A stretch of 64,000 nt of DNA from Brevundimonas vesicularis (GTDB taxonomy: Bacteria; Pseudomonadota; Alphaproteobacteria; Caulobacterales; Caulobacteraceae). The notes under the pieces were generated by a model that was not told the DNA's origin, made no database searches, and saw only the letters and a list, made by a program, of their open reading frames with translations. Shown here piece by piece: positions 6,386 through 45,027 of this stretch (positions are counted from its first letter, which is position 1; every line of letters starts with the position of its first letter). The DNA lies in the NCBI RefSeq assembly GCF_027105095.1, contig NZ_CP114278.1, positions 434,001 to 498,000 on the forward strand. The letters run 5' to 3'. The position numbers and the translations under genes were made by a program.

Positions 6386-6516
6386 ATCCTCCCCTGCGAA
6401 GCGGGGGAGGGGGACCACGAAGTGGTGGAGGGGGCGGACGCAAGGCCGGTGTCTGGGGTCGCCCCCTCCACCACGCTGCGCGCGGTCCCCCTCCCCCGTG
6501 AAGGACGGGAGAGGAT
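6386..6516. repeat. Palindromic repeat element copy R1 (head-to-head pair), intergenic
   Basis: This element fills nearly all of the rbfA-truB gap. It has two inverted half-units, 6386-6435 and 6461-6516, separated by 25 bp. Read in the same sense both halves go ATCCTC, a small stem-loop, GGGGGAGGGGGACC, a second short stem-loop, then GTGGTGGAGGGGGC; they agree along nearly their full length. The outer ends are the ATCCTC sides, the inner ends the GGAGGGGGC sides. Four more copies occur at 9198, 21686, 43578 and 44002. I recall similar GC-rich palindromes in other Alphaproteobacteria but cannot name the family. Confidence 0.9.
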
Positions 6517-6524
6517 CGCCAGCA

Positions 6525-9197: not shown

Positions 9198-9346
9198 GTC
9201 TCCTCCCCACTTGTGGGGAGGGGGACCGCGCGTAGCGTGGTGGAGGGGGTCTTGAAGGGCCACCGGCGCTCGCAACGATCTGAAGAACCCCTCCGTCACG
9301 GCGCGAAGAAGCGCCGCGCCACCTCCCCGCAAAGCAGGGAGGAGAC
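9198..9346. repeat. Palindromic repeat element copy R2 (head-to-head pair), ftsK-lolA gap
   Basis: The element is bounded by a perfect inverted repeat, GTCTCCTCCC / GGGAGGAGAC. The left half is the same sub-type as in R1 (GGGGAGGGGGACCGCG ... GTGGTGGAGGGGG). The right half, read in the same sense, is a variant: GGGGAGGTGGCGCG, a longer central stem (GGCGCG...CGCGCC) and GACGGAGGGG. The same variant half recurs in R4. The remaining bases of the gap (9016-9197) hold no ORF or structure I can support and presumably carry the lolA promoter. Confidence 0.88.
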
Positions 9347-21685: not shown

Positions 21686-21818
21686 AATCCTCCCCCGTGA
21701 GCGCCTGCGAACGGGGAAGGGGGACCACGAAGTGGGGGCGACCCCGCGCACCCTGTCTGGTTCCAGCCCCCTCCACCGCCTGCGGCGGTCCCCCTCCCCC
21801 GCGATGCGGAGGAGGATT
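21686..21818. repeat. Palindromic repeat element copy R3 (head-to-head pair), between S9 paralogues
   Basis: It starts 6 bp after the stop of the first S9 peptidase and ends 19 bp before the start of the second. The outer ends AATCCTCC / GGAGGATT form a perfect inverted repeat; the right half (GCCCCCTCCACCGCC ... GGTCCCCCTCCCCC) matches R1 and R5 closely, while the left half has drifted in its GGAGGGGG arm (GTGGGGGCGACCCC). Any ribosome binding site for the second peptidase must come from the last bases (AGGAGGATTAG) of the element. Confidence 0.9.
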
Positions 21819-43320: not shown

Positions 43321-45027
43321 ATGGGTCGTTTCGTCTTCAAACTGCCCGACGTGGGCGAAGGCACCGCCGAGGCCGAACTGGTCGGATGGCACGTCAAGAT
43401 CGGCGACACGGTCGCCGAGGACCAGATCATCGCCGACGTCATGACCGACAAGGCCACGGTCGAGATCACCGCTCCGGTCAGCGGCAAGGTCGTCGCCCTG
43501 CATGGCGAACCCGGCGCCATGGTGCCGGTGCGCGGTCCCCTGGTGGAGTTCGAGGTCGAGGGGGCGGGCAATGCCGAAGAGAGCCCCTCCGTCTCTCCCC
43601 TGCGCTCCGAGCCACCTCCCCCCGCTTCGCGCGGGGAGGAAACTGTCGCTGCATCGTCTCCTCCCCACGACAGTGGGGAGGGGGACCGCGTAGCGGTGGA
43701 GGGGCTCTCTAACGCCGCGCCGACATCCGGCAATTACGTCTTCAAACTGCCTGACGTCGGCGAAGGCACGGCCGAGGCCGAGCTGGTCGGATGGCACGTC
43801 AAGGTCGGAGATGCGGTCGAGGAAGACCAGATCATCGCCGACATCATGACCGACAAGGCCACGGTCGAGATCACCTCACCGGTCGCCGGAACGGTCGTCG
43901 CCCTGTACGGCGAGGCAGGCAAATCTGTGCCGGTCGGCGGGCCGCTGGTCGCATTCGATGTCGAGGGTCGGGGCAATGTCTCGACGCCCGCGCCCGTTCC
44001 GGCCCCCTCCACCGCTTCGCGGTCCCCCTCCCCCGATGGGGGAGGATCGTCGCCTTCGAAATCTCCCCCCGCCGGGGGGAGTACCCGCGCAGCGGGGGAG
44101 GGGGGCAAGCCTGTTCCCGCCCTGACCGGCCGTGCGCCCGGCGAACGCCCGTCGGCCTCGCCGGCCGTGCGCAGTCGCGCGCGGGACCTGGGCGTCGATC
44201 TGACCTTCGTGCCCGGGTCCGGCCCGGCGGGTCGGATCACGCACGAGGATCTGGACGGCTTCATCGCGCGCGGCGGTTCGCAACCTGCGTCGGCGCCGTC
44301 CGGCGGCGGCTCGACCTATGCGAAGGCGCAAGGGACGACCGAGGTCAAGATCATCGGCCTGCGCCGCAAGATTGCGGAGAAGATGGCCGAGAGCGTGCGC
44401 CGCATTCCCCACATCACCTATGTCGAGGAAATCGACATGACGGCGGTGGAGGAGCTGCGCGCCCACCTGAATGCGACGAAGTCCAAGGATCAGCCCAAGC
44501 TGAACGTCCTGCCCTTCATCGCCCGCGCCATCGTGGTCGCCCTGCGCGACCAGCCGCAGATCAACGCCACCTATGATGACGAAGCGGGCGTCCTGACCCA
44601 GCACGCCCCGGTCCATCTGGGCATCGCCGCCCAGACCCCGAACGGCCTCATGGTGCCGGTGGTCCGCCATGCCGAGGCGCGCGACCCCTATGACACGGCG
44701 CTGGAGATCGCCCGCGTCTCGGGCGCGGCCAAGGACGGTTCGGCCAAGCGCGAGGAACTGTCGGGTTCGACCATCACCATCACCTCGCTGGGCACGCTGG
44801 GCGGGGTGGTCCATACCCCGATCATCAACCACCCCGAGGTCGCCATCGTCGGTCCCAACAAGATCGCCGAACGGGTCATGGTCAAGGACGGCCAGATGGT
44901 CGTGCGCAAGATGATGAACCTGTCGTCCAGCTTCGATCACCGCATTGTCGATGGGCATGATGCGGCGGTGTTCGTGCAGCGGATCAAGGGGCTCCTGGAA
45001 AACCCGGCGACGTTGTGGATGGGGTGA
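43321..45027 (+). CDS. bkdB: Dihydrolipoyl acyltransferase (E2) of the branched-chain complex, two lipoyl domains
   Basis: 568 residues. Two nearly identical lipoyl domains (about 1-80, lysine K44; and 139-217, lysine K179, both in MTDKATVEIT), then a peripheral-subunit-binding domain (SASPAVRSRARDLGVDLTFVPGSGPAGRITHEDL) and the acyltransferase core ending with SSFDHRIVDGHDAA. Most BCKDH E2 proteins carry one lipoyl domain, so this one is duplicated. Both linkers (residues 86-130 and 228-262) are encoded by palindromic repeat elements R4 and R5 that also occur between genes elsewhere in the window; the frame stays open through both. Confidence 0.95.
   Translation: MGRFVFKLPDVGEGTAEAELVGWHVKIGDTVAEDQIIADVMTDKATVEITAPVSGKVVALHGEPGAMVPVRGPLVEFEVEGAGNAEESPSVSPLRSEPPPPASRGEETVAASSPPHDSGEGDRVAVEGLSNAAPTSGNYVFKLPDVGEGTAEAELVGWHVKVGDAVEEDQIIADIMTDKATVEITSPVAGTVVALYGEAGKSVPVGGPLVAFDVEGRGNVSTPAPVPAPSTASRSPSPDGGGSSPSKSPPAGGSTRAAGEGGKPVPALTGRAPGERPSASPAVRSRARDLGVDLTFVPGSGPAGRITHEDLDGFIARGGSQPASAPSGGGSTYAKAQGTTEVKIIGLRRKIAEKMAESVRRIPHITYVEEIDMTAVEELRAHLNATKSKDQPKLNVLPFIARAIVVALRDQPQINATYDDEAGVLTQHAPVHLGIAAQTPNGLMVPVVRHAEARDPYDTALEIARVSGAAKDGSAKREELSGSTITITSLGTLGGVVHTPIINHPEVAIVGPNKIAERVMVKDGQMVVRKMMNLSSSFDHRIVDGHDAAVFVQRIKGLLENPATLWMG
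43578..43710. repeat. Palindromic repeat element copy R4 (tail-to-tail pair), inside the E2 gene
   Basis: The ends are a perfect 13-bp inverted repeat (AGAGAGCCCCTCC, 43578-43590; GGAGGGGCTCTCT, 43698-43710). The halves are the same units as in R2, one of each sub-type, but their order is reversed: the GGAGGGG ends are outside and the GTTTCCTCCCC / GTCTCCTCCCC ends inside. Read in frame it encodes the Pro/Ser/Glu-rich linker between the two lipoyl domains (residues 86-130). Confidence 0.92.
44002..44106. repeat. Palindromic repeat element copy R5 (tail-to-tail pair), inside the E2 gene
   Basis: The left half (44002-44048), read on the minus strand, runs ATCCTCCCCC, loop, GGGGGAGGGGGACCGCG, GCGGTGGAGGGGGC, an almost exact match to R1 and R3 halves. 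The right half, ending near 44106, is a diverged unit of the same kind (TCTCCCCCC ... GCGGGGGAGGGGGC). The element is 105 bp, 35 codons, and encodes the Ser/Pro/Gly linker (residues 228-262) between the second lipoyl domain and the subunit-binding domain. Confidence 0.88.

Follow-up and report, generated by a model that had tools for sequence, protein, structure and literature searches.

Palindromic repeats that lie between genes and also, in frame, within them are known from Rickettsia, where the Rickettsia palindromic elements (RPEs; Ogata et al. 2000) measure 105-146 bp and are tolerated in conserved proteins, according to the excerpts of the literature used throughout this account (PMC2229807, PMC2759123). 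Comparable excerpts describe GTAG/CGTC repetitive extragenic palindromes (REPs), which are dispersed, mostly intergenic and in some cases found in genes, often DNA-repair genes (PMC3733652); the CIR elements of Caulobacter (Chen and Shapiro 2003), which are intergenic, about 110 bp long and built of two inverted-repeat arms and a joining linker sequence, with GANTC (PMC2229807); and RU-1/2/3, small mobile repeats whose open frames have become fused with enterobacterial genes (PMC2759123). Here we analyze a 64,000-nt stretch of the Brevundimonas vesicularis genome (NCBI RefSeq assembly GCF_027105095.1, contig NZ_CP114278.1, positions 434,001 to 498,000, forward strand; hereafter the window). 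In it, a palindromic element, R4, is read in frame between the two lipoyl domains of an E2 acyltransferase. R4 had been singled out in a preliminary description made from the letters of the window alone. We find that a second element occupies the next linker of the same enzyme, and that elements of several families replace plain sequence at one or both positions in the majority of the species covered.

Results

Both linkers of the E2 acyltransferase contain a palindromic element

The E2 gene encodes, in order, lipoyl domain 1, linker 1, lipoyl domain 2, linker 2, the subunit-binding domain and the catalytic domain. Its parts and the elements within it are located as follows.

43321..45027, + strand: E2 acyltransferase of a 2-oxoacid dehydrogenase complex, an open reading frame of 568 aa that matches NCBIfam E2 models below their curated cut-offs
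43330..43563, + strand: lipoyl domain 1, aligned to lipoyl domain 2 of the same gene
43564..43734, + strand: linker 1, 57 aa
43578..43710, + strand: R4, two-half palindromic element of family F1, 133 bp, with a perfect 13-bp terminal inverted repeat, read as residues 86-130
43584..43621, + strand: module A of R4
43675..43704, - strand: module B of R4, 30-nt core
43735..43971, + strand: lipoyl domain 2, aligned to lipoyl domain 1 of the same gene
43972..44157, + strand: linker 2, 62 aa
44003..44106, + strand: second palindromic element, family F2, read as residues 228-262
44004-44033, opposite orientation to the copy in R4: module B core within the second element

The coordinates, inverted ends and in-frame residues reported for R4 in the preliminary description are all exact. 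Its terminal inverted repeat is AGAGAGCCCCTCC; perfect 13-mer inverted repeats no more than 160 nt apart begin at only 7 positions in the window. R4 folds with a z-score of -6.0, and none of 200 dinucleotide shuffles was equally stable. No sequence in the window matches Rfam at gathering score.

The earlier account was right about R4 in linker 1 and overlooked the second element, in linker 2 of the same gene. This element has 42-nt arms that are 76% complementary (fold z -3.9), and bulky hydrophobic residues are absent from the frame in use, whereas they make up 12-29% of the five unused frames. R4 and the second element have a 30-nt module in common, 97% complementary and in reversed orientation. 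One enzyme thus employs the same repeat in opposite orientations.

The elements are dispersed and mostly intergenic in their own genome

The own genome (3.12 Mb, one contig) yields 73 matches to R4 at E<=1, counting R4; three of these span almost the full length at 78-81% identity, and one intergenic match has 81% identity over 127 bp. The second element, itself included, gives 56 matches at E<=0.01, and the matches of both elements together form 48 clusters. Three intergenic elements in the window consist of the same kind of half-units as R4, as previously claimed.

6386..6517, strand not assigned: intergenic element
9198..9346, strand not assigned: intergenic element of two halves, with GTCTCC ends outward
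21686..21818, strand not assigned: intergenic element

Genes in the fetched loci were called with a purpose-made codon-usage finder, and the module-B core was counted with at most 5 substitutions and no indels, which is why the copy at 9198 is left out. In the loci examined, module A has at least 14 copies, 13 intergenic and one in linker 1. The module-B core has at least 44, of which 39 are intergenic, one overlaps a gene end and four lie inside genes. The tally of half-units between and within genes that the preliminary description had proposed is therefore 39 vs 4 for module B. Coding sequence makes up about 90% of the window, so the depletion of copies within genes is strong. The four in-gene copies are those in the two E2 linkers, one in a ligase-associated DEXH helicase and one in the C-terminal tail of RuvC, so that two of the four fall in a single gene, E2. 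Nineteen intergenic two-half elements found by pattern have on average 3.4 of 6 frames open vs 2.2 in base-shuffled copies.

The helicase copy is an in-frame palindromic element of the ligase-associated DNA damage response DEXH helicase (L172:1480-1640; G000:C1:765535-765652) with flanks GLSATIEDPDLIRGWLAPGDADAK / TLVRGDPGAPAVIDVL; in RuvC, module B makes up part of the C-terminal tail (L153:1398-1532; G000:C1:3031311). DNA-repair genes are two of the three element-bearing genes, E2 being the third. Within the module-B core, positions 10 (G to A in 6/39 distinct copies) and 16 (C to T in 7/39) co-vary, as in CCACTTCGTGG, and because they change together the module-B hairpin is preserved. Two-half copies at L001-L030 occur in two arrangements, with either the GTCTCC or the AGAGCCCC ends outward.

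Element-type linkers replace plain linkers across the genus

An E2 match was present in 124 of 131 same-genus genomes; 110 E2 loci were fetched and 14, mostly fragmented, were left out. From the linker count we excluded L126, L129, L130, L135, L137, L138, L139 and L140, which had one lipoyl domain in frame, a contig end, a masked stretch or a broken frame, leaving 102 E2s with two lipoyl domains. Of these, 46 have an element-type linker 1, 45 an element-type linker 2 and 61 at least one of the two. Both slots are element-type in 30, only one in 16 and 15, and neither in 41 (Fisher p 1e-4), so the states of the two linkers are correlated. The remaining linkers are Ala/Pro-rich or Thr-rich.

A measure that does not use family labels, an inverted-repeat arm that is perfect over 9 nt or more, separates the two classes: 44/46 (linker 1) and 37/45 (linker 2) element-type linkers have such an arm vs 5/56 and 5/57 plain ones, with 19-31% in codon-shuffled versions. 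Element-type linkers are also longer than plain ones (median 59 vs 43 aa for linker 1, 66 vs 56 aa for linker 2) and contain a smaller fraction of Ala, Pro, Lys, Glu and Val (0.45-0.47 vs 0.72-0.78, Thr-rich linkers omitted and before L125 was relabelled).

Close relatives show what R4 displaced. L032 has the same F1 linker 1 and a plain linker 2, L040 has two plain linkers, and L035 combines a plain linker 1 with an F2 linker 2. Compared with its closest plain relatives, L040 and L035, the gene in the window keeps the flanking codons intact, while about 100 nt of plain core are gone and about 136 nt of element stand in their place. The preliminary description had predicted a clean absence of residues 86-130 between intact flanking codons in some relatives; the codons are indeed kept, whereas the core was replaced and not simply interrupted. 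Because close relatives have a plain linker between these codons, the linker residues are not ancestral. One linker protein encoded by different DNA in all relatives, the pattern that would mark an ancestral linker, is not what we found. R4 is a dispersed palindromic element read as protein within a linker that is Ala/Pro-rich in close relatives. In none of the 102 E2s does an element accompany a complete plain linker. Linker 1 reaches 81 aa at most, in L119, where it contains a nested palindrome, and the sum of plain and element would be about 88 (about 43 plus 44).

At least six peptide families recur in the linkers.

F1: SPSVSPLRSEPPPPASRGEET
F2: PSTASRSPSPDGGGS
F3: SPFPLEGGRAGDGGG ... TPTQPSPLEGEG
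F4: PPSNPAPQASVP
F5: SPASPVLPPRGGDRAA
F6: PSVIAQ or PSVSSQ types

Their halves are combined as mosaics. An F2-type second half follows the first half of F1 in L052 linker 2 and follows F4 in L114 linker 1, and in L069 linker 1 F6 is fused to the module-B half. The six reading frames of module B are unequally used: in loose pattern searches of 204 linkers, PSTASRSPS, GEGDREAVEG and GRGTA are often or sometimes present, the frames PLHRFAVPLP and PPPLRG occur in none, and the PRSGGGG frame is found by eye in one linker (L035 linker 2), L092 and L120 matching the pattern and reading differently. A small palindrome with a CGTATACG core is nested in frame in several element-derived linkers (linker 1 of L069 and L119, linker 2 of L136), as GATCGTATACGATC in L069 and GGCTCGTATACGAGCC in L136; for L119 its presence is deduced from like peptides.

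Several families also occur elsewhere in host genomes. A search of 17 genomes for F3 gave matches in 6 and none in 11, the own genome being among the 11. Apart from its E2, G082 has copies on five other contigs; G084 has six such places, G108 three and G088 one, F3 of G079 is limited to its E2, and G122 yields one short match. In the same 17 genomes, full-length F4 copies are confined to four E2s and F4 halves are dispersed elsewhere. Arms remain complementary across species despite changes (for example CCATCC/GGATGG vs CCAGCC/GGCTGG), and same-family linkers of distant species differ in loops and spacers as different genomic copies do.

Linker types turn over repeatedly on the E2 tree

On a tree built from the E2 domains alone (102 rows, 1341 columns), linker 1 requires at least 29 changes between plain and element states and 39 between families, and linker 2 at least 30 and 38. 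In 200 label shuffles the means, in the same order, were 34.2, 44.3, 33.3 and 41.5 and the minima 26, 40, 27 and 35. Linker type therefore changes almost as often as shuffled labels do on its own tree.

The loop variant of R4 (at most 2 mismatches) is present in 9 of the 131 genomes, once in each, and at 8 of the 9 places it lies inside E2: seven times in linker 1 and once, in G097, in linker 2. The seven bearers of F1 in linker 1 reject a single clade (approximately unbiased test, p-AU 4.8e-7) and have similar junctions by eye. L031 and L032 belong to a nine-row clade with support of 99, of which the other seven rows are plain in linker 1. This nested position, together with the non-clade distribution of F1, implies that F1 very likely entered the L031/L032 lineage from another E2 gene. 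The near-confinement of the loop variant to E2, in bearers that do not form a clade, points to an exchange of linker cassettes between E2 genes.

Linkers of family F1 evolve under relaxed constraint

Among themselves (20/21 pairs), F1 linkers diverge by 0.11/0.12/0.24 at codon positions 1/2/3, and the domains of the same pairs by 0.05/0.03/0.20. Constraint on the F1 linkers is relaxed but not free. R4 differs from three full-length intergenic copies at 9, 16 and 29 of 120, 122 and 124 sites (codon positions 1, 2, 3), and those three copies differ among themselves at 10, 11 and 15 of 117, 118 and 122 sites; the third-position excess in R4 is modest (binomial p 0.002). In an AlphaFold2 model computed from 12 aligned E2s, residues 87-136 and 217-284, which comprise the two linkers, are predicted as coil with a predicted local distance difference test score (pLDDT) <50, and both lipoyl domains as strands with pLDDT mostly 60-91. 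The model agrees with flexible linkers and is no proof of them. The earlier suggestion that R4 was kept as a working linker gains indirect support from the open frame, the third-position excess and the low-confidence predicted coil.

Lipoyl-domain number, other E2s and outgroups

A link between the insertion and the lipoyl-domain duplication, also suggested in the preliminary description, is not supported, since E2s with two lipoyl domains may have plain linkers or element linkers. E2s with a single lipoyl domain were found at L137 (G099), L140 (G100) and L135 (G115, ended by a contig end). By eye, all three show a left flank of linker-1 type, an element and a right flank of linker-2 type, and they may be deletions between linkers 1 and 2; the case is clear for L137 and weak for the other two. 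The L137 domain is nearer to lipoyl 1 than to lipoyl 2 of its relatives (0.068 vs 0.145 to L100), and its element is F4, which L084 and L114 carry in linker 1 and linker 2 alike. The simple explanation there is a deletion between like elements, and collapse of the draft assembly is also possible. The L140 domain is nearer to lipoyl 1, all distances being large. The L135 domain is equidistant from lipoyl 1 and 2 of the nearest row (0.188 both), which leaves the deletion reading unsupported in that case.

The E2 gene is preceded by E1 alpha (40933) and E1 beta (42195) and followed by E3 (45514). NCBIfam scores of E1 and E2 are closest to pyruvate dehydrogenase models, all under curated cut-offs, and a separate E2 at 1802749 of the own genome scores above the pyruvate dehydrogenase cut-off; the complex at this locus would accordingly be of branched-chain type. 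Among the pyruvate dehydrogenase E2 loci (30 of 59 matches listed), the same motifs occur in two (L273, L275) vs 45/102 for linker 2 here (Fisher p 7e-5), so the E2 studied here is not unique but special. The own-genome pyruvate dehydrogenase E2 (L268) is plain. Eight of the 30 pyruvate dehydrogenase E2 linkers (L258, L259, L261, L262, L270, L282, L284, L287) have a peptide like PAGHESGxAVATPxGVK, possibly one more repeat family.

Outside the genus, the E2 of Caulobacter sp. 17J80-11 (L252) has two lipoyl domains and two plain linkers. The E2 of a Caulobacteraceae metagenome-assembled genome (MAG; L249) has a repeat-like linker 1 with a 9-nt arm, and in that of an uncultured Caulobacterales MAG (L256) linker 1 contains an inverted repeat that is perfect over 19 nt. 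Given these two, element-like E2 linkers are probably older or wider than this genus.

Discussion

Copies of dispersed elements have replaced plain linker sequence in a patchy manner across the genus, and one variant nearly specific to E2 occurs in bearers that are not a clade. The explanation that we think probable for the whole is that element copies became E2 linkers and were later exchanged as cassettes between E2 genes. R4 is a copy of a non-autonomous mosaic palindromic repeat made of two half-units that each consist of a C-rich arm with a hairpin. It has become the coding linker between the lipoyl domains, as the second element has become that from lipoyl 2 to the subunit-binding domain. 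About half of the six element frames are open, and the linker frames are mostly hydrophilic and rich in Pro, Ser, Gly, Glu and Asp, properties that would let the protein tolerate elements as flexible tethers. Both slots differ repeatedly across the genus between a plain linker and six or more repeat families, the element taking the place of the plain core with the flanks retained. The most likely route would be an initial capture of a mobile element, followed by recombinational exchange of whole linker cassettes between E2 genes, including exchange from linker 1 to linker 2.

Several points weigh against this reading or narrow it. There is no target duplication at the ends of R4, where sequence was replaced. 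The R4 frame has 14% bulky hydrophobic residues (range over six frames 9 to 27%) and is third lowest of the six. Copy numbers in the own genome are lower bounds, because 40/59 (R4) and 40/67 (second element) of the first-look candidates were scored. A plain linker used as query recovered itself, and every other match was partial, at E 1.6e-5 or worse; this control is weak, since the plain linkers of orthologues in distant species were missed as well. The family labels are based on regular expressions devised after the linkers had been inspected (L125 was labelled by hand), and 12 Thr-rich linker 2s are classed as plain. On the E2 tree 35 of 99 inner branches have support <80, the F1 group was picked after the tree had been inspected, and one place of the R4 loop variant, in G007, lies outside E2. 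The flanking domain DNA of species with a common family shows no dip in divergence beside the linkers and no visible recombination tract; short tracts, old events or repeated insertion are each compatible with this. The third-position excess counts R4 three times. The structural model is poor overall (mean pLDDT 52.8, predicted template modelling score 0.33), and values <50 extend to parts of the binding and catalytic domains. That the element-made linkers are translated is something that we infer.

Much of the same evidence could be read as repeated independent insertion into E2 linkers, with surplus plain sequence deleted by selection on linker length and without exchange between species. 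This would account for the many families, several with copies elsewhere in host genomes, for loops and spacers that vary among same-family linkers of distant species like separate genomic copies, and for the lack of a recombination tract outside the linker. It fits poorly with a loop variant of R4 (F1) that is nearly confined to E2 and has similar junctions in its seven linker-1 bearers, and with the lack, in 102 E2s, of any full plain linker that still carries an element, and we regard it as somewhat unlikely. An ancestral linker that only resembles the repeat would have to owe the likeness to low-complexity, GC-rich composition. Pro/Ser/Gly-rich content and high G+C could yield chance similarity, but identity to an intergenic copy, perfect ends, the stable fold, plain linkers in close relatives and long inverted repeats in just 10/113 plain linkers together rule this out, leaving it next to no credence.

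The palindromes might instead be retained for a role in nucleic acid, as an RNA hairpin acting on translation or mRNA stability or as a DNA-binding site, the protein linker being a by-product. The strong hairpins, the complementarity of arms across species and the paired changes in intergenic copies would suit such a role, yet 41/102 species do without an element in either linker, which argues against any general function of this kind, and changes in R4 favor third codon positions; we consider it improbable. The position of R4 between the two lipoyl domains is what would recommend a link to their duplication. That link is refuted for this genus by the 41/102 E2s with two lipoyl domains and two plain linkers, an arrangement also found in Caulobacter sp. 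17J80-11, and we see hardly any chance of it. More tentatively than cassette exchange itself, one may picture the linker slots as a natural cassette system in which new linkers originate from selfish palindromes, are traded by recombination from species to species and from slot to slot, and, where two like elements are present, bring about the loss of a lipoyl domain; this is possible, and we would not yet call it likely. If true, selfish repeats drive the evolution of linkers and domain number in a central metabolic complex across a genus.

Among described systems, RPEs come closest: R4, at 133 bp, falls within their size range, and it likewise has inverted ends (13 bp, perfect) and lies in frame in a gene. 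The host differs, being Brevundimonas and not Rickettsia; and, unlike what the excerpts on RPEs describe, elements of several families occupy one or both of two interdomain linkers of one enzyme in the majority of the species covered here, and they replace sequence instead of only adding it. As with the GTAG/CGTC REPs in the excerpt cited, the palindromes are mostly intergenic, and the ligase-associated helicase and RuvC contain one, but the elements here are longer and mosaic. A REP/REPIN system with a RAYT was rejected, as the Y1/RAYT transposase (PF01797) is missing from 17/17 genomes, the control being positive in 5/14 named genomes, including E. coli and Caulobacter vibrioides. CIR elements, as excerpted, resemble ours in having two inverted-repeat arms joined by linker sequence and a similar length. 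This candidate was also rejected, because the own-genome elements lack GANTC: it occurs in neither R4, the second element nor any of 30/30 own-genome matching stretches (overlapping loci included). In the linkers of other species GANTC is present in F3 (10/20), F6 (7/12), F4 (2/16), F2 (1/25) and the one H1b. R4 resembles miniature inverted-repeat transposable elements in being short, with terminal inverted repeats and no transposase of its own. The inverted-repeat-replacing IS1272 (PMC5678879, excerpt) was considered as a lead for the replacement. RU-1/2/3 are, in the excerpt available, described gene by gene, whereas here replacement recurs at the same two slots of orthologues.

Titles and the beginnings of abstracts, with subscription papers mostly outside this coverage, hold no account of element-derived E2 linkers or of Brevundimonas palindromes. 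Those sources treat in-gene palindromes one case at a time, as accidents that are tolerated. In-frame palindromes as such have already been described in Rickettsia, and other forms of them in enterobacteria and REP-rich species, as far as the excerpts cited go (PMC2229807, PMC2759123, PMC3733652). The present case differs in that replacement recurs across a genus at two homologous slots of the same enzyme, by several families and with one variant near-confined to E2. With 91 element-type linkers in 102 species for a single enzyme (not all independent) and plain-linker controls among close relatives, the passage of selfish repeats into useful protein parts becomes testable, as does the question of how little sequence matters in a swinging-arm linker.

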